Source: Candidatus Enterococcus myersii
GTDB lineage: Bacteria > Bacillota > Bacilli > Lactobacillales > Enterococcaceae
DNA length: 64,000 nucleotides
NCBI RefSeq assembly: GCF_017316025.1
Contig: NZ_JAFLVT010000001.1
Location: 138,875-202,874, forward strand
Direction: 5' to 3'
The notes beneath the pieces were generated by a model. The model was not told where the DNA came from and did no database searches. It saw only the letters and a list, made by a program, of their open reading frames with translations. Positions 3,935 to 44,157 of the stretch are shown in pieces; within the stretch, counting starts at the first letter, position 1; the number at the start of each line of letters is the position of its first letter. The position numbers and the translations under genes are program-made.

Positions 3935-4201
3935 CAACCTAATAATACGACATCGATAAGAAGAGTAGCAAGTTTGTTTATCCAAAGAGAGTCTCTGGTT
4001 GGTGAAAAGAGACGATGGCAATTTGTGAACCACATCTTGGAGTTGTTTTTCTGAAATAAAAGTAAGAAAATCCGGGTATGCCCGTTACAGCAGCAGTCAT
4101 TGATAGATGACTTATGGAGGCTCTCGTTGTAAAACAAGAGTAAAAAAAGGTGGAACCACGTAATTTACGTCCTTTAGCGCATGCGCTAAAGGACTTTTTT
4201 T
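3935..4201 (+). ncRNA. T-box riboswitch, specifier CAC (histidine)
   Basis: A canonical tRNA-sensing leader. Stem I carries AGTA on its 5' side (GAAGAGTAG), an AGAGAG bulge, and a GGTTGGTG distal loop. The 3' side reads GAA-C-CAC-A (4027-4034), which places histidine codon CAC in the specifier position. The Tyr and Met leaders in this window follow the same GAA-N-codon layout. The T-box core GGTGGAACCACG is at 4148-4159. It competes with an intrinsic terminator at 4168-4201 (GTCCTTTAGCGC palindrome plus T-run). Uncharged tRNA-His should allow read-through towards the ABC transporter genes. Confidence 0.88.
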
Positions 4202-6845: not shown

Positions 6846-9272
6846 ATGGCACAACCAAAACGCCAGAAGAAAAAGAAACGCGTGACTAAAAAACAACAAC
6901 AGCAACAAGAAAAAATGATGTTGGCGGCAATCGGCGCCGCATTTATTATATTTGCCGGATTGGGTTTATTTAAGTTAGGCTTTTTAGGCACCTTAATTGC
7001 AAATTGCTTGCGAATTATCGGTGGAAATACGTATCCTATCTTGGCTGTGGCTTTAGCTTTGTATGGCTTGTGGTTAATGGTTAAAACGACAGCAGCAAAG
7101 TTTGAAAGTTTTCGCCGCTTTTTTGGTGGCTTGCTGATTTATGCGGCATTGTTATTATTTTTGCATGCTCTATTATTCCGCAATGTGATTAGCGGCACAC
7201 CCAATATTATCACTACGACTTGGGGAACATTATTAGGAGACATTCGCTCTAATCAAGTTAGTCAAAATGTCGGCGGCGGTATGTTGGGGGCAATTTTGTA
7301 TCAGGGAAGTTACTTTCTTGTTTCCCAAGTGGGGAGCTATTTTTTGGCCTTCTTACTTGCAATAGTAGGGTTGTTTTTAGTCAGCATGATGAGTGGCGGT
7401 GAATTAGTAGAACACTTGCAAAATATAGGGGATAATTTACAAGAATTTTTAGCTGGTGATCCTGCGAAAAAAGCTGCGCGACAAGCGGCGAAAAAAGCGC
7501 GACAAGAAGAAAAAGCGGCGAGAAAGGCCGAAAAAATTGCAGAAGAAAAAGCAGCGGCTAAAGAAGAGTTGGCCCGCAATGAAAAAAATCAAGTGCGTCC
7601 CATGACTGCTGGAGAAAAATTGGCAGCGACAGAAAAAGTTGACGCGGCAGTCGAAGCTGAACAATTGAGTTTTGTGCCGATTGATCACTTCCAAGAAAAA
7701 GTGGCAGCAAAACCCAAAATGGATTCTAAAATGCAAAATACACCAGATCTTTCAGAAACTACGGCAGAAATGCCAGATGACGGTGAAGATTTAGACTTTG
7801 AAATTCCTGCAGAAGCAGAAGATCGTGATTATCAATTGCCAGATGTTGCATTATTAGATTCACTACCACCGACTGATCAAAGTGATGAGTATCAAAAAAT
7901 TGAACACAATATTGGAGTCTTAGAAAAAACCTTCCAAAGTTTTGGCGTCGATGCCAAAGTTGTGAAGGCTAGTTTAGGACCAGCAGTAACAAAATTTGAA
8001 GTGCAACCGGCTGTTGGTGTTAAAGTTAGCAAAATTGTTAGCTTGACCGATGATATTGCATTGGCACTAGCGGCAAAAGATGTGCGGATGGAAGCACCAA
8101 TTCCCGGAAAATCTTTAATTGGGATTGAAGTTCCCAATAGCAGTATCAGTACAGTTTCCTTTAGAGAAGTCATTGAGGCACAGCCAGATCATCCTGATAA
8201 ATTATTAGAAGTACCACTTGGCCGCGATATTTCCGGGCGGGTACAAACGGCTGATTTAACTAAAATGCCGCATTTATTAATTGCTGGTTCCACTGGTAGC
8301 GGGAAATCAGTAGCCATCAATGGGATTATCACCAGCATTTTGATGCGAGCAAAACCTCATGAAGTCAAATTAATGATGATTGATCCAAAGATGGTGGAAT
8401 TAAATGTCTATAATGGTATTCCTCACCTCTTAACTCCGGTTGTAACAAATCCTAGAAAAGCCGCGCAAGCATTGCAAAAAGTAGTTAAAGAGATGGAAGA
8501 ACGTTACGAGAAATTTGCCGCAGCTGGTGTTAGAAATATTACCGGCTACAATGAAATGATTTTAGCCCGTAATTTAAGTCATGGGGAAAACAATCCGATT
8601 TTGCCATTTATTGTTGTTATTGTCGATGAATTGGCGGATTTAATGATGGTTGCTTCAAACGAAGTGGAAGATGCGATTATTCGCCTAGCACAAATGGCAC
8701 GAGCAGCGGGTATTCATATGATTTTGGCTACACAACGGCCAAGTGTCGATGTTATTACCGGGATTATTAAAGCAAACGTTCCTTCACGTATGGCCTTTGC
8801 TGTTTCTAGCGGTACAGATTCTCGTACCATTTTAGATAGCAATGGCGCAGAAAAACTACTTGGTCGTGGCGATATGCTCTTTTTACCAATGGGCGAAAAT
8901 AAACCGATTCGTGTTCAAGGCGCATTTATTTCCGATCATGAAGTGGAACGTGTCGTGGAATTCATCACAGAACAACAAGGTGCTGAGTATGAAGAGAAAA
9001 TGATGGTAACCGAAGAAGACGAAACAAACAGTGGCGCCAATGCACAACCAGAAGATGAGTTGTATGAACAGGCAAAAGATTTAGTCATTGAAATGCAAAC
9101 TGCCAGTGTTTCTTTACTGCAACGCCGTTTTCGTATTGGCTACAACCGAGCAGCACGCCTAGTCGATGAATTAGAAATGCATGGTGTTGTGGGGCCTTCA
9201 GAAGGTAGTAAACCCCGTAAAGTTTTAATTGAACCAAGTGAACCAGAAGAACTTCCGCAAGATTTTGAATAA
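6846..9272 (+). CDS. ftsK: DNA translocase FtsK/SpoIIIE
   Basis: An 808-residue septal DNA pump that clears chromosome DNA from the closing division site. A basic N-terminus ([10 protein letters not shown]) precedes about four membrane helices (residues about 25-175). A charged Ala/Lys/Glu-rich linker follows (about 200-300). The RecA-like motor has Walker A GSTGSGKS (about 480-487) and Walker [14 protein letters not shown]. The C-terminus is a winged-helix gamma domain (about 735-800, [19 protein letters not shown]) of the kind that reads polarity sequences. Length is normal for the family. The ATG at 6846 follows GAGGGA; the TTG six bases upstream is poorer. A TATAAT at 6814-6819, just past the previous terminator, suggests its own promoter. 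Confidence 0.96.
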
Positions 9273-9365
9273 ATAGTTTCATTTTCAACGCTAAAAATAT
9301 ATTGTTCCCTTTTGGCTATGCTTTGTGGTAAACATATTCAGATCAAGTTGTGTAAACGCTAATGT

Positions 9366-9485
9366 TTACAATAAGGCGAAATTTTTTTAAATTCCAACAG
9401 TAATTCCAATTTCGTAATATTTTACCCGGATCACGTAAGGATTAAGGGAGTTATAGTAGCTTTTCTTAACAATAAAGAAGATATA
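9366..9485. repeat. Intergenic repeat copy between ftsK and a small ORF
   Basis: The 280-base gap after ftsK holds a block beginning ACAATAAGGCGAAATTT, then CCGGATCAC, then AGCTTTTCTTA. The same blocks in the same order occur at 63110-63225. No strong terminator directly after ftsK is visible. Confidence 0.5.
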
Positions 9486-9552
9486 AATTGGGAGGATAGC
9501 ATAGGGGTGAAGGATTGCTTTAGCTTTGCTATTTGCCAAAAGTAGGTGAAGC

Positions 9553-9696
9553 ATGAAAGAACTCTTGCTAAATTTATTGCGTAAAATCGCCCGTCTATCA
9601 CGTAATAGTGGAGCCGCAAGCGGGAATACCTTTGCTCGTAACGCATACGGTGAACTGGAACAAAAAGAACAAAAGCAAAAAGAACAGGGAAAATAA
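9553..9696 (+). CDS. Small charged peptide of unknown function, 47 aa
   Basis: A 47-residue ORF beginning MKELLLNLLRKIARLSRNSG. It has an amphipathic basic N-terminal helix, a Gly/Ala/Ser/Asn middle, and a Gln/Lys/Glu-rich tail. The ATG follows GTAGGTGAAGC, an acceptable ribosome site, and a strong terminator lies 40 bases downstream. The layout faintly recalls AgrD-type precursors (amphipathic leader, short core, acidic tail), but there is no cysteine and no AgrB partner, so I make no functional call. It may be missed by gene finders. Confidence 0.45.
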   Translation: MKELLLNLLRKIARLSRNSGAASGNTFARNAYGELEQKEQKQKEQGK

Positions 9697-9735
9697 AGTC
9701 AAAAAATTTCTAAGCGTTCAAAAAGTTCAAAAATA

Positions 9736-9806
9736 AAACCTGAAAATTAACTTTTCTTACGAAGCTTATGGCGGGATAAGAAAAGTTAGTTATTCAGGTT
9801 TTTTTG
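9736..9806. terminator. Long hairpin terminator before the bceAB-like genes
   Basis: AAAACCTGAA and TTAACTTTTCTTA pair with TAAGAAAAGTTA and TTCAGGTTTTTTT. A and T runs on both flanks suggest bidirectional use. Confidence 0.8.
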
Positions 9807-9839
9807 TACCAATCAAATTTATTTATTACATGAAGACAC

Positions 9840-9886
9840 CTAACAAAAGTGTTAGGCCCTTGTTAGCCCTATCTATTTTGTGTTAG
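9840..9886 (+). promoter_or_regulatory. Candidate operator for a BceR-like response regulator
   Basis: A perfect inverted repeat CTAACA-AAAG-TGTTAG (9840-9855) resembles the TnACA-N4-TGTnA sites bound by BceR-type regulators. Two further TGTTAG copies follow at 9861 and 9881, spaced 11 and 20 bases, about one and two helical turns. They lie 100-150 bases before the Bce-type ATPase gene. The match to the consensus is from memory and binding is inferred. Confidence 0.5.
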
Positions 9887-9989
9887 CTGAAAGTTTCGTA
9901 AACTAAAAGAGTAAACAGGAGGTCTGATTGTAACAGGTAAATCAGACAAATTATTTTTATCAAATACGAATGACTAAGGAAGTGCGAAG

Positions 9990-14247: not shown

Positions 14248-14276
14248 ACCCATAATACTACAGGAGGCGCATGCCA

Positions 14277-14831
14277 ATGTTAATTACAGAATTTGAACGA
14301 GATAATCGGATTTTAAGAGACCAGTTGGCGGATCTTTTAGCGAAAACTTGGCCGAAAGATTATGGACAAACAGCAAAAGCAGAAGTTGAAAAATTGTTAG
14401 CACCAGAGCGTATTGCCGTAGCCGCATTGGTGGAAGATGACTTAGTCGGCTTTGTTGGGGCAATTCCACAATATGGTCAAACCGGCTGGGAAATGCATCC
14501 ATTAGTTGTCGTTTCTGATTTTAGACGTCAAAAAATCGGGGCTCGCTTAGTATCTTTTTTAGAATCTGAAATTGCATCTCGCGGTGGCATTACTATTTAT
14601 TTAGGTACCGATGACGAAAATGATGAAACAACGTTAAGTCAAGTGGATTTGTATCACGATCTTTTTGGCACGATTGCGCAAATAAAAAATCTAAAGAATC
14701 ACCCCTACAGTTTTTATCAAAAAATGAGCTATCAAATTACCGGCGTGATTCCAGACGCAAACGGCTGGTTTAAACCAGATATTATTATGGCAAAGCGAAT
14801 TGGTGATTTTGAAGAACTAACAGAAGAATAA
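14277..14831 (+). CDS. aac(6')-I: Aminoglycoside 6'-N-acetyltransferase, AAC(6')-Ii family
   Basis: A 184-residue GNAT enzyme that transfers acetyl from acetyl-CoA to the 6' amine of aminoglycosides. It closely follows the enterococcal chromosomal AAC(6')-Ii/-Id/-Ih group along its whole length. Telling segments are PERIAVAAL, GAIPQYGQTGWEMHPLVV (about residues 61-78), the acetyl-CoA loop RRQKIGARLV, ASRGGITIYLGTDD and the C-terminal PDANGWFKPDI. The ATG at 14277 is 9 bases from AGGAGG; the ATG at 14271 is only 3 bases away and unlikely. The gene is monocistronic with a terminator at 14843-14902. In E. faecium this enzyme gives intrinsic low-level resistance to tobramycin, kanamycin and amikacin; here activity is inferred. 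Confidence 0.87.
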   Translation: MLITEFERDNRILRDQLADLLAKTWPKDYGQTAKAEVEKLLAPERIAVAALVEDDLVGFVGAIPQYGQTGWEMHPLVVVSDFRRQKIGARLVSFLESEIASRGGITIYLGTDDENDETTLSQVDLYHDLFGTIAQIKNLKNHPYSFYQKMSYQITGVIPDANGWFKPDIIMAKRIGDFEELTEE

Positions 14832-14917: not shown

Positions 14918-15062
14918 ATTTTTCAGAAGTAAAAACGGACTTGCAATTTTTCAGAAGATTCTTTAAAATTGTTTACAAAGATAAAAGATGCAATATTCAG
15001 AAAATTCAAGTGTTGCATTTTATATTGAAGAAAAAGTAATTGCTAGTTACCAGCAATTGCCG
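14918..15062 (+). promoter_or_regulatory. Promoter region of the TnpB-like gene
   Basis: TTGCAA (14941-14946), 17 bases, then TAAAAT (14964-14969) make a plausible promoter. The repeat AATTTTTCAGAAG occurs twice (14918 and 14945), the second copy lying in the spacer. A hairpin AATTGCT-AGTTACC-AGCAATT lies at about 15038-15058. It could be a relic of an IS200/IS605 left-end hairpin, which I cannot prove. Confidence 0.5.
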
Positions 15063-15104
15063 GCTTGTTGTTTTGTTGGGGAGTATGCTTTTTAAGGGGA
15101 AATT

Positions 15105-16070
15105 ATGGGGAAAAACCAAAGGAAAGTGCTAAAGGCTTACAAGTTTCGCATTTATCCAACCAAAGCACAGCAAAAATTTTTAATTCAAACTTTTGGTTGC
15201 GTTCGCTTTACGTACAATACGCTTTTAAAACAGCGTCAGTTCAATACGATTGAAGCAAGTAAAAAGCTGACACCTGCTGCCTTAAAAAAGGAATTTCCTT
15301 TTTTAAAATTAACCGATAGCTTGGCATTAGCAAATGCACAACGAAATTTAGCGCGCGCATTTCAAAATTATTATCAAGGTAGAAGTGGGCATCCAAAAAT
15401 GAAGATCAAAAAAAGTACGTGGCAGTCTTACACCACGAATAATCAGCAACAGACAATCTGGTTAAAGGATAACTTATTGAAGGTACCTAAATTAAAACAG
15501 CCCATTGCCGTTGTTTGTCATCGAAAAGTGGTAGGCAAAATTAAATCTGCAACAATTACTGCAAAGAATTTGCAACAGTTTTATGTTTCATTATTATGTG
15601 AAGAAGAAGTTTGTCATTTGCCTAAGACTAAAACTGAAATTGAATTACGTTTTGCTCCAAATCAGCTTGTTGTAGGCAATCAATTAAAATTTTGTCGTCA
15701 ACTTTGTGTAAATGACCTTGAAACCAAGTTAAAAAAAGCCAAACGAAAATTGGAAATAAAAGCCAAAAGTGCACAGCAACGCAAAGTGAGATTGGCAGAG
15801 GCCAAAAACTATCAAAAACAAAAATTAAAGGTACAAAAATTGTACCATCATAAGCAACAGCAAAAAAAAGCGTGGATTGACGAACTAACAATGCATCTGA
15901 TTAAAAACTATGATTTTTTATATGTTGAAGTCCCAAAAAATGGGATAGAGGGATCTTTTACGTTGGCGGACTGGCAAAGTTTTTTAGTTAAGTTGCAGTA
16001 TAAAGCCAATTGGTACGGGAAAAAAGTGATTTTTTTAACAGCCGCTAAAACGGTGCGAAAAATCAGTTAA
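15105..16070 (+). CDS. Nuclease-dead TnpB-like protein, candidate TldR RNA-guided repressor
   Basis: A 321-residue relative of TnpB from IS200/IS605 elements. The N-terminal wedge/REC part is well preserved (KAYKFRIYPTKAQQKF, QTFGCVRFTYNTLL, DSLALANAQRNLARAF, SYTTNNQ, KLPKL-like KVPKLK, GKIKSATI). At the RuvC-I site the usual GIDLGL is replaced by ELRFAP, so arginine 182 stands where the catalytic Asp should be. RuvC-II keeps Glu275 (YVEVP), but the next Asp is Val. The protein ends at AAKTVRKIS, before the zinc finger and RuvC-III Asp; active relatives run to about 370-410 residues. The frame is otherwise intact, starts with AAGGGG-ATG, and has a promoter. No TnpA is nearby. Loss of cleavage with retained RNA/DNA-binding parts is what TldR proteins show. 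A decaying transposon gene is the alternative. Confidence 0.75.
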   Translation: MGKNQRKVLKAYKFRIYPTKAQQKFLIQTFGCVRFTYNTLLKQRQFNTIEASKKLTPAALKKEFPFLKLTDSLALANAQRNLARAFQNYYQGRSGHPKMKIKKSTWQSYTTNNQQQTIWLKDNLLKVPKLKQPIAVVCHRKVVGKIKSATITAKNLQQFYVSLLCEEEVCHLPKTKTEIELRFAPNQLVVGNQLKFCRQLCVNDLETKLKKAKRKLEIKAKSAQQRKVRLAEAKNYQKQKLKVQKLYHHKQQQKKAWIDELTMHLIKNYDFLYVEVPKNGIEGSFTLADWQSFLVKLQYKANWYGKKVIFLTAAKTVRKIS

Positions 16071-16165
16071 ACAGTTTAACTGGAAGGGACTCCAGGGCTC
16101 GCCTAGGGGATAAAAAAGCTTGGCTTTGTTTCTAGGAATCCGTTCACTAATTATGATAAACCAAA
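16060..16165 (+). ncRNA. Putative omega/guide RNA of the TnpB-like protein
   Basis: The region overlaps and follows the stop codon. It contains a perfect hairpin CAGTTAAAC-A-GTTTAACTG (16064-16082). Then comes the GGGACTCCAGGGCTCGCC segment that resembles the tail of active tnpB genes. A CCTAG...CTAGG arm (16102-16136) with an inner AAAGC/GCTTT follows, ending AGGAATCC (16134-16141). The sequence after it, GTTCAC then TAATTATGATAAAC (16142-16161), would be the end of the scaffold and the guide. The exact guide start is uncertain. A terminator follows at once. The coding region of the zinc finger is deleted but this RNA part is kept. Confidence 0.55.
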
Positions 16166-16168
16166 TAA

Positions 16169-16224
16169 AAAAACGTCATTAAAGGCTGACAGTTAAATGT
16201 CATTGGCCTTAATGACGTTTTTTT
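16169..16224 (+). terminator. Terminator after the TnpB-like locus
   Basis: AAAACGTCATTAA and TGACA pair with TGTCA and TTAATGACGTTTTTTT. It would end a transcript just after the putative guide. Confidence 0.85.
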
Positions 16225-16321
16225 AGCTGATTTTGTAAACCAGCCAGCTAAAAAATAAGCTGAAGTCTTCTAAAAAATTGATTGATTATTCGGTCTAAAT
16301 GAGTACCGAGAGCTTTTTTGA

Positions 16322-17155
16322 TCAAAATTTTGCCAACAGGACATCATCTTTTAAACGATAAATTTTTGAAGGACGACCAATTCCCAATGGTTTTTCTCCG
16401 ATTTCAACAAAGTATTGCAACATAGCTTTTTTGAAGTTGGAATGATCAATACTTTTAAAATCCATGCCCCAAAATTTCGCAAAAACTTTACGAGCTTCGG
16501 TAATCGTGAAAGTTGGTCCTAAGACTTGTAAGACGCGCGGTTCATGCTCCATTTTTTCTGCTACCCGGTTGAATGCTTTTAAGACAATTTGACTATGGTC
16601 AAAAGCCAAAGAGTCACTGCCAGAAGAAGCGCCGGTTTTTAAATTCAAAATGATTTCAACATCGTGACCACTGGTTAAATAAAGCTCACTACCTTTTCTT
16701 TCCATCGTAAACCAGCGAACGTCATCGGCGTCATCACCGGCACTTAGTGGTTCTTCACCAATAAAAGTTAAATAGCTGACGGTGACGACCCAACCCCGAG
16801 GATCGCGATTAGGCGTACTAAAAGTATGGAGCTGCTCAATATTTGATTTAGAAATTTCGACGCTAGTTTCTTCTTGCGTTTCTCGTAAGACAGAGTCATC
16901 CGTTGATTCATTGGGCATAACAAAACCACCTGGAAGAGCCCAAGAATTACGGTAAGGATGGCTTTTTCGTTTGATTAAAAGCATTTTTAATTGATCTTCT
17001 TCTTTGTTGTAACACATTAAAACCATGTCTACAGTTAAAGATGGCTTTTCGTATTCTGGGTGATCTTGTTTTTTATACCACTGGAGAAATTCTTCTTCGG
17101 TGGCGACTTGTTCATAGTATTGTTTTTCTTCAGCTAATGTTGCAAATTCTGGCAT
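16322..17155 (-). CDS. Nudix-domain protein with winged helix (NrtR-like)
   Basis: A 277-residue protein with an N-terminal extension, a Nudix domain (about residues 40-175) and a C-terminal winged-helix region (about 200-277, ending GRPSKIYRLKDD). The Nudix box GFVMPNESTDDSVLRETQEE is nearly intact; only the glycine after EE-X is Ser. The architecture matches NrtR, a repressor that senses ADP-ribose products in NAD metabolism, though many relatives are annotated simply as Nudix hydrolases. No NAD gene is adjacent. The start at 17155 follows AGAGGTGA; an upstream in-frame start overlaps the preceding gene. It is encoded 19 bases after a small membrane protein and is likely co-transcribed. Confidence 0.78.
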   Translation of the reverse strand: MPEFATLAEEKQYYEQVATEEEFLQWYKKQDHPEYEKPSLTVDMVLMCYNKEEDQLKMLLIKRKSHPYRNSWALPGGFVMPNESTDDSVLRETQEETSVEISKSNIEQLHTFSTPNRDPRGWVVTVSYLTFIGEEPLSAGDDADDVRWFTMERKGSELYLTSGHDVEIILNLKTGASSGSDSLAFDHSQIVLKAFNRVAEKMEHEPRVLQVLGPTFTITEARKVFAKFWGMDFKSIDHSNFKKAMLQYFVEIGEKPLGIGRPSKIYRLKDDVLLAKF

Positions 17156-17174
17156 AAACGGCTCACCTCTACTT

Positions 17175-23159: not shown

Positions 23160-23397
23160 CACATTAATAAATGATGACTGTGATGGAAACACAGTAGGAC
23201 AATAGCCGCTGTTAAAGAGAGCTGGTGGAGCTGCAAACCAGTACATGCTAATTGTGTGAATTACACTTCCGGAGTCTTGGCGTAAAGCCGCGCGACAGCG
23301 TTAAATGTTTGAGTGATATGCTAGCTTTTATAGCATATAATTTGGGTGGTACCGCGAATTTTCGTCCCTTGGCAATTTTGCCAAGGGATTTTTTTTA
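23160..23397 (+). ncRNA. T-box riboswitch, specifier TAC (tyrosine)
   Basis: Stem I has AGAGAG and the GGTGGAG distal loop. The specifier region is GAA-T-TAC-A (23258-23265), giving tyrosine codon TAC. The core GGTGGTACCGCG is at about 23345-23356 and the terminator TCCCTTGGCAA/TTGCCAAGGGA plus T-run at 23365-23397. It senses uncharged tRNA-Tyr and controls tyrS. Confidence 0.95.
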
Positions 23398-33984: not shown

Positions 33985-34105
33985 AAGCACTTGTCGTTTA
34001 TATTAAATACATAACCAACAACAACCTTTTTATTTTTCATTTTACTCCATTTGAGAGTAATTACTCCTTTTTCCATTGGGCCTAACCAACCCAATGGTTT
34101 TTTTT
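33985..34105 (+). ncRNA. Possible small RNA ending in an orphan terminator
   Basis: A strong intrinsic terminator CCATTGGG/CCCAATGG plus eight T (34073-34105) is not preceded by any gene on the plus strand. An AT-rich promoter-like stretch (TTATATT near 33997) and an inner GAGTAATTACTC dyad lie upstream. No ORF with a ribosome site is seen. The 5' end is a guess. Confidence 0.4.
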
Positions 34106-43874: not shown

Positions 43875-44157
43875 CAATAACACAAATGCGACGATAAGAT
43901 AAGTACAGATGATGCGTTTTAAAGAGAGCTTCGGTGGGTGAAAAGAAGTAAACAAGGGCATATGGAAAATGGTCTTTGAGCAGGAAACTGTGAGTTTTGA
44001 ACAAGCAGTTGACGGGAGTGCCCGTTATAGCACAGTAGTATGAATACGTACTATGATGAGGTCGGACGAATTATTCGATGAATAAAGGTGGTAACACGAA
44101 AAGCTTACGCTCTCGTCCTTATTTTGTTTAGGCAAAATAAGGACGAGAGCTTTTTTA
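43875..44157 (+). ncRNA. T-box riboswitch, specifier ATG (methionine)
   Basis: Stem I has AGAGAG and GGTGGGTG. The specifier region is GAA-A-ATG-G (43965-43972), giving methionine. The T-box core is the variant GGTGGTAACACG (about 44087-44098). The terminator is a long perfect stem GCTCTCGTCCTTATTTTG with its complement plus T-run (44108-44157). It controls the metQ-metN-metP genes directly downstream, so the reading is self-consistent. Confidence 0.92.

Follow-up and report, generated by a model that had tools for sequence, protein, structure and literature searches.

An orphan TldR-type RNA-guided repressor candidate in Candidatus Enterococcus myersii with a proposed trans action on oligopeptide uptake

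Introduction

TldR proteins associated with oppF have reportedly been described in enterococci, by Wiegand and co-workers in 2024, and all the TldRs of which we know are coupled to an adjoining gene. The protein studied here resembles the oppF-associated kind in being TnpB-derived and RuvC-dead, in having its guide RNA (gRNA) encoded downstream, and in a guide start that fits the oppA promoter region. The oppF neighbourhood itself is found in a second copy in the same genome (contig C25), in E. casseliflavus, in E. mundtii and in others, whereas the copy in our window (the whole 64,000-nt stretch of DNA that was analysed) has no opp gene beside it, no target in its promoter, and its predicted target on another contig.

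A second kind, the FliC-associated TldR of Enterobacter prophages, is treated in a report (PMC13418256) that describes a 6-nt seed, guides that act down to a length of 6 nt, and a reduction of motility by the flagellin TldR for which 6-nt guides sufficed. If a fit of 6-7 bases is enough, as it may be, several promoters could come under the control of a single guide RNA. The FliC-associated system is like ours in combining a nuclease-dead TnpB with a gRNA, and differs from it in being prophage-borne, flagellin-coupled and directed at another target (PMC13418256). The active-type IS200/IS605 TnpB proteins of E. cecorum and E. columbae (L139, L140 and their copies) share with the window locus 42-44% identity, the right-end boundary GTTCAC| and the left flank TTTAA but, unlike it, they have their own catalytic residues and zinc finger, and they occur in multiple copies with variable guides.

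In this work, we propose that the window encodes an orphan TldR-type RNA-guided repressor, which probably acts in trans on oligopeptide uptake. As far as the literature searched shows, where we found no paper on an enterococcal TldR, the orphan state, a promoter without self-target and the possible regulon are new.

Results

The candidate gene and its two neighbours are arranged as follows.

14271..14831, + strand: AAC(6')-Ii-type acetyltransferase gene (NF000165, 312 bits, cut-off 300), a conserved neighbour in the slot
15105..16070, + strand: orphan tldR, a nuclease-dead TnpB homologue of 321 aa (homology, alignment, selection)
16322..17158, - strand: gene for a Nudix and NrtR winged-helix protein, on the far side of the slot

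The preliminary description had seen here a full-length-looking frame of 321 codons with a ribosome site, a homologue of TnpB with Arg at RuvC-I and an end before the zinc finger and RuvC-III, and no TnpA partner, and our analyses bear out each of these points. The frame of 321 codons runs from the ATG at 15105 to a stop codon that ends at 16070, behind an AAGGGG ribosome site at 15094-15099. Homology to TnpB extends across the protein: NCBIfam IS200_TnpB matches it with an E value of 2e-60, which is under that model's own cut-off, guided_TnpB with 117 bits (cut-off 100) and Pfam HTH_OrfB_IS605 with 5.9e-16, and solved TnpB structures match at about 3e-22. In a residue alignment with nine full-length Bacillota TnpB proteins, whose motifs are IGIDLGI, IEDLN, CxxC...CxxC and HDRDINAS (in most), the position of the RuvC-I Asp is taken by Arg182, the RuvC-II Glu is kept as Glu275, and the C-terminus precedes the zinc finger and RuvC-III, both of which are absent. 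The RuvC active site is in this way lost, with Glu275 remaining, and the protein lacks the full set of Asp-Glu-Asp RuvC residues and zinc finger that marks an active TnpB nuclease. Read by eye, the frames listed for 8-24 kb include none that is TnpA-like; no transposase partner or mobile element lies nearby, the neighbours being chromosomal genes in a conserved slot.

A relative of tldR is present in all ten genus genomes searched. The first set that we compared consists of 14 loci (the window and L020-L032), whose proteins are 305-366 aa long and share roughly the same end point; the protein starts of L029 and L030 are arbitrary, since no ATG, GTG or TTG precedes the match in L029 and the only one in L030 is internal. 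The tldR copies that follow oppF in the window's genome and its near kin (L028-L032) seemingly use a rare ATT start with a GGGGAGG ribosome site, just before the tldR match (for example, at L029 7812 and L030 7395), and in L029 and L030 none of ATG, GTG and TTG is present there. A wider scan of genome contigs yielded at least 549 stretches that encode a relative, from which the best 80 loci were kept and the frames of 35 examined. Among these best 80, TldR-like proteins are found in E. dispar, E. canintestini, E. asini, E. casseliflavus, E. gallinarum, E. florum, E. canis, E. columbae, E. aquimarinus, E. mundtii, E. alcedinis and Tetragenococcus halophilus, and full-length TnpB genes in E. cecorum, E. 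columbae, E. lemanii, E. raffinosus and others. The loss of nuclease residues runs throughout the TldR family. An alignment and tree of 33 proteins, a comparison already suggested in the preliminary description, separated the 24 TldR rows from the 9 TnpB rows with a support of 100/100, and by descent, as judged from these sequences, the window protein is of the oppF-associated kind of TldR. The orphan state appears in two well-supported groups of this tree (the window with E. dispar; E. asini with G005 and G003), and also in E. alcedinis. An origin from a plasmid or phage was considered and rejected: plasmids gave no near DNA match, and at the protein level no match in phages (105 records) or in plasmids (1256 records) reached 60% identity, the annotated ones among the matches listed being mainly transposases or TnpB. 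The genome G006 carries a second tldR-like gene (L027, contig C2, 8820-9719, - strand) near an OppD-like gene; its protein forms a long branch of the tree, and no scaffold was found downstream of it.

Could the gene be a dying remnant, which has lost its nuclease domain and then opp and whose frame is open merely because too little time has passed? The absence of a partner gene alongside and of the C-terminal domain would fit such a remnant, as does E. innesii (L138), whose tldR frame (8989-9675) is broken, possibly by a recent loss of the protein, while its opp operon, gRNA and oppA target are retained. Decayed copies in sister strains or a neutral dN/dS had been named beforehand as signs of a dying transposon gene, yet the frame is open at all six orphan loci of the genus search, even though their proteins differ by up to 47%. 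In Nei-Gojobori counts on 14 pairs, in most of which synonymous sites are near saturation, pN/pS in the seven orphan pairs was 0.17 (window/L020, with 5 differences only), 0.23 (L022/L024), 0.24 (window/L021), 0.27 (L022/L023), 0.28 (L023/L024), 0.35 (window/L022) and 0.39 (L021/L024); six opp-linked pairs gave 0.18-0.29, and the window gene compared with the C25 copy 0.42. The counts indicate that the orphan tldR frame is under purifying selection. With this range of 0.17-0.39, and with the compensatory changes in the RNA and the invariant guide seed described below, we regard a dying remnant as most improbable.

The slot itself gives an indication of where the orphan gene comes from. Synteny was assessed by tblastn of the window and opp proteins on the loci, and the identity thresholds for reading the result were chosen manually. 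In Enterococcus and Tetragenococcus, most relatives lie directly after oppABCDF, often in the chromosomal slot of the window: the order oppABCDF-tldR followed by Nudix/NrtR and metG occurs in L025, L026, L124-L126, L128, L131-L134, L136, L138 and L149, and the upstream side of L025, L026, L126, L132, L133, L136 and L149 also shows rlmN and/or aac(6'). In L127 and L129 opp is present, with none of the slot genes within the stretch compared; L135 and L027 have a different OppD-like gene nearby and are not included among the opp-linked loci. The position beside aac(6'), initially taken for a setting different from that of opp, has to be corrected on this point, because the same slot holds oppABCDF-tldR in E. 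mundtii, G006, G009 and others, and here the operon is gone. The slot is likewise without opp in G007, G004/E. dispar, G001/E. asini, G003 and G005, the aac(6')-tldR pair being inverted in the last two, and in E. alcedinis (L180). With no opp gene at its locus, the window gene is not an oppF-associated TldR by neighbourhood, that is, a tldR directly after oppF. A second tldR follows oppF elsewhere in the window's genome, G007, G004, G008 and G002, and the genomes G001, G003 and G005 have the orphan copy only.

Three features were found 3' of the gene.

16078..16147, + strand: guide-RNA scaffold AACTGGAAGGGACTCC...GTTTCTAGGAATCCGTTCAC (covariation in 22 sequences), with its 5' end unmapped
16148..16163, + strand: guide TAATTATGATAAACCA, with a boundary derived from active elements; bases 1-7 (16148-16154) are the invariant seed
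16166..16225, + strand: Rho-independent terminator directly after the guide (fold)

A conserved RNA stretch lies beside the gene, on its 3' side, at 13 of the 14 first-set loci (all except L027) and at 18 of the 19 TldR loci of a second set (all except L180). The fold of the window scaffold region taken as a single sequence is no better than shuffles (z -0.81). In an alignment of 22 sequences, from which near-identical and duplicate loci were omitted, the cells of three helices are paired in 98.7% of cases and 32 cells are changed on both sides, compared with a shuffle mean of 8.0 and with none of 500 shuffles as high; the signal is destroyed when the partners are slid. Ten bases, CACTAATTAT, are invariant in all 22 RNAs. 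The terminator, also noticed from the start as a strong one, folds at -28.4 kcal/mol (z -8.45), and none of 200 shuffles was as good.

The boundary between scaffold and guide could be placed with the help of the active TnpB copies of E. cecorum, E. columbae and others. All 12 copies compared are alike through GTTCAC and divergent after it, and their left flank is TTTAA in 10 of the 11 that could be aligned and ATTAA in one (L153 was unalignable), which suggests that TTTAA is the target-adjacent motif (TAM). Because the active copies are alike up to GTTCAC and then diverge, the guide of the window is TAATTATGATAAACCA from 16148, and TTTAA is expected beside its target. The RNA tail of the first reading is real and conserved, but its scaffold ends not in AGGAATCC, as had been thought, but in the CAC at 16147. 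A guide start before this CAC was rejected, as the active copies diverge only past GTTCAC and, within the scaffold, GYYC has GRRC as its pairing partner. All 22 aligned guides start with TAATTAT, and bases 9 and 12-16 (A, AACCA; within 16155-16163 of the window) are nearly invariant in the 22 gRNAs.

The strong conservation of this RNA, together with a guide core identical to that of the C25 copy, would also be explained if the RNA alone were functional, as a small regulatory RNA or as a guide for the C25 TldR, and the orphan protein were dispensable. The protein is, however, under purifying selection, G001, G003 and G005 possess the orphan copy only, and E. alcedinis shows the reverse, a protein that is kept with no RNA found 3' of its gene, so that we consider a function of the RNA alone quite unlikely. 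In this last species (L180) tldR occupies 9025-9954 in a slot without opp and no recognisable gRNA stands directly past its stop; it may be either a protein-only case or one with the RNA located elsewhere.

Where would the guide act? At all 15 opp-linked loci scanned in the second set, TTTAATAATTA is found 65-88 bp upstream of the oppA start, between TTGC-type and TAAAAT-type hexamers that, read by consensus, would be the -35 and -10 elements, and in 11 of the 15 the seventh guide base is matched as well. In L132 it precedes the first of two oppA copies only, and in L133 both. The 12-mer TTTAATAATTAT stands before oppA in all seven opp-bearing genus genomes; the sites after the oppA stop (5 loci), which lie between converging genes, were not counted as promoters. 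There is no exact TTTAATAATTAT within the 64-kb window, and four occurrences were found in its genome (G000).

C25:113015: before oppA of the second opp operon
C25:114888: after oppA
C1:48742: between LacI-type and acetyltransferase genes
C5:25938: in what reads like coding sequence, although tallied as intergenic

At C25:113015 the guide matches a host promoter beside the TAM through TTTAA and 7 guide bases, a match that covers 7 nt only of the 16-nt guide. Longer targets were sought in G000 as guide stretches with up to 2 mismatches and as TTTAA followed by 15 guide bases with no more than 3; nothing convincing appeared beyond the two gRNA genes, so that no matching target explains why guide bases 9 and 12-16 are conserved. 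The dipeptide transporter DtpT was dropped as a candidate target in this species, as judged from one same-species copy (L326), whose promoter has a CodY-like box and no TTTAA-flanked seed. Taken together, the joint conservation of gene and guide RNA, the selection on the frame, the family-wide loss of nuclease residues and the fit of TTTAA plus guide start to the oppA promoter support the TldR assignment that the preliminary description had put forward.

The second TldR of the genome, beside oppF at C25, has the same 15-nt guide core, and with an identical core the orphan could be redundant. It might then be an ordinary oppF-type TldR that duplicates the C25 copy and shares its guide and oppA target, the sites at other transporter genes being due to chance in AT-rich promoters. 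In ten genus genomes TTTAATAATTAT has 42 sites, its reversal 46, and three controls made of TTTAA and a permuted seed 19, 10 and 33. Motif abundance was rejected as evidence on the strength of the 42 sites against 46, and since the count is not above the reversed control, the case rests on position. Thirty-seven of the 42 real sites are intergenic, compared with 22 of 61 control sites (p = 8.6e-8; one control at a contig end was left unclassified). The start of a peptide or amino-acid transporter gene lies within 350 bp of 19 of the 42 real sites and of 3 of the 61 permuted-seed sites (p = 1.1e-6), and these three fall within a single GlnPH-type coding region next to glnQ; if two control sites are added that lie close to an ABC ATPase whose substrate is unknown, the control count is 5 of 61 (p = 2.6e-5). 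Pfam searches covered one or more members of every orthologue group and most, not all, of the control neighbours. Collapsed by hand, the 19 real sites represent about nine orthologue groups: oppA, two GlnPH-type loci, two other OppA-type proteins, a POT-family dipeptide transporter, two amino-acid permeases and an OppD-type operon.

In the three genomes that have the orphan only, 8 of 12 sites satisfied the transporter criterion, against 0 of 5 control sites (p = 0.029), and one further site lies before a purine permease. With the criterion fixed beforehand, eight further genomes were held out, with 26 real and 20 control sites; after removal of six known oppA sites, 5 of 20 real and 0 of 20 control sites satisfied it, a marginal difference (p = 0.047), and the five amount to four places, to which three genomes contribute POT-family transporters and one an amino-acid permease. 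One held-out control site is inside a gene beside a DcuC-type carrier. Left out of the held-out count were three sites, in three species (L277, L284, L292; near 1501), where TTTAATAATTAT falls within a gene for a branched-chain amino-acid permease, with the next permease gene 56 bp downstream; these may reflect codon constraint or be real sites. These results are suggestive of a regulon, without settling it. The site count and the marginal held-out result speak for a plain duplicate of the C25 TldR, whereas the transporter-linked sites, the persistence of the orphan where no orthologue of the linked oppA was found, and a promoter of its own without target argue against it, and we consider such a duplicate rather unlikely. 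Two individual sites deserve mention: in G001 a gene that by eye is transposase-like (L103, 13169-14488) stands between a predicted TldR site and a GlnPH-type transporter gene, and in G006 a predicted site (C1:861654, L056) lies between genes for a subtilase and a PrsA-like foldase, a position that would fit protein digestion together with peptide uptake.

Upstream of the orphan frame, three sites were recognised.

14941..14969, + strand: promoter-like site TTGCAA-17-TAAAAT (consensus match), read as a possible oppA-promoter relic from which the target TTTAATAATTA has gone
14946-14960: second CodY-like match, with 2 mismatches
14992..15006, + strand: CodY-box-like AATATTCAGAAAATT, with 1 mismatch to the consensus

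For the promoter that had been noticed before the frame there is this promoter-like match; such matches in the region number 8, about twice the 4.1 of shuffles. In comparisons of the promoters of five orphan tldR genes with those of eight oppA genes, with 100 shuffles each, 14 of the 40 scored above all shuffles (seven from L022, three each from L023 and L024, one from L021), the best being L022 against L026 with 65 (shuffle maximum 32). None of the eight comparisons of the window promoter did so; its best score, 33 with L028, was reached by 1 of 100 shuffles. Read by eye, none of the five orphan promoters contains TTTAATAATTA. The orphan promoters thus look like relics of oppA promoters that may have lost the target, with a likeness that is modest for the window and strong for the locus of G005.

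For CodY boxes we scored against AATTTTCWGAAAATT, which we take to be the consensus. In the 64-kb window AATATTCAGAAAATT is the only match with at most 1 mismatch, and matches with up to 3 mismatches (20, with 19.1 expected) are at chance level. Within 250 bp upstream of tldR, such a box with up to 3 mismatches occurs at all six orphan loci, where 0.04-0.16 would be expected for each, and at three of eight other loci, which points to possible CodY control of the orphan tldR. CodY boxes as a hallmark of the target sites were rejected, as control sites are similar: among intergenic sites, a box lies near 16 of the 37 real ones and 2 of the 7 controls (p = 0.68).

Discussion

We propose that the ancestor of the window gene was the final gene in an oppABCDF-tldR-gRNA operon of the same slot, and that it would have been both driven and self-repressed from the oppA promoter, with its target TTTAA|TAATTA(T) filling the spacer between the -35 and -10 elements. 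In the lineage of the window oppABCDF would then have been lost, and tldR may now be transcribed from the apparent remains of the oppA promoter, where a CodY-like box is kept and the target is absent; with the target absent from its own promoter, tldR would have escaped self-repression. The orphan protein and its guide RNA may cover the oppA promoter of the second operon (C25:113015) in trans and, in the species that have the orphan only, further promoters of peptide and amino-acid transporters. A cleavage-dead complex seated in the -35/-10 spacer would exclude RNA polymerase. In opp-linked species tldR would thus lie inside the operon that it represses, whereas in the window it is separate from its presumed target operon. 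Transcription of the orphan gene, formation of the complex, DNA binding and repression are all predicted here from sequence comparison.

More tentatively, and with somewhat less than even confidence, we suggest that in several enterococcal lineages, after loss of the operon and with tldR taking over a promoter cleared of the self-target, a once self-repressing operon member has turned into a free trans-acting regulator, whose 6-7-base seed and TTTAA may define a regulon for the uptake of oligopeptides, dipeptides and amino acids beside CodY control. Should this be true, we would be dealing with a bacterial RNA-guided regulon rather than with a single-target switch. Whether bacteria possess such regulons is directly testable in enterococci, for whose nutrition the uptake of peptides and amino acids, the predicted target here, is of central importance. 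An orphan that has outlived its operon and lost its self-target would, if our reading is right, illustrate how an RNA-guided transcription factor leaves its birthplace.

Other RNA features are also present in the window. Rfam matches comprise the Enterococcus sRNA Ref84 at 34013-34105 and three T-box leaders at 3944-4177, 23171-23372 and 43882-44123.
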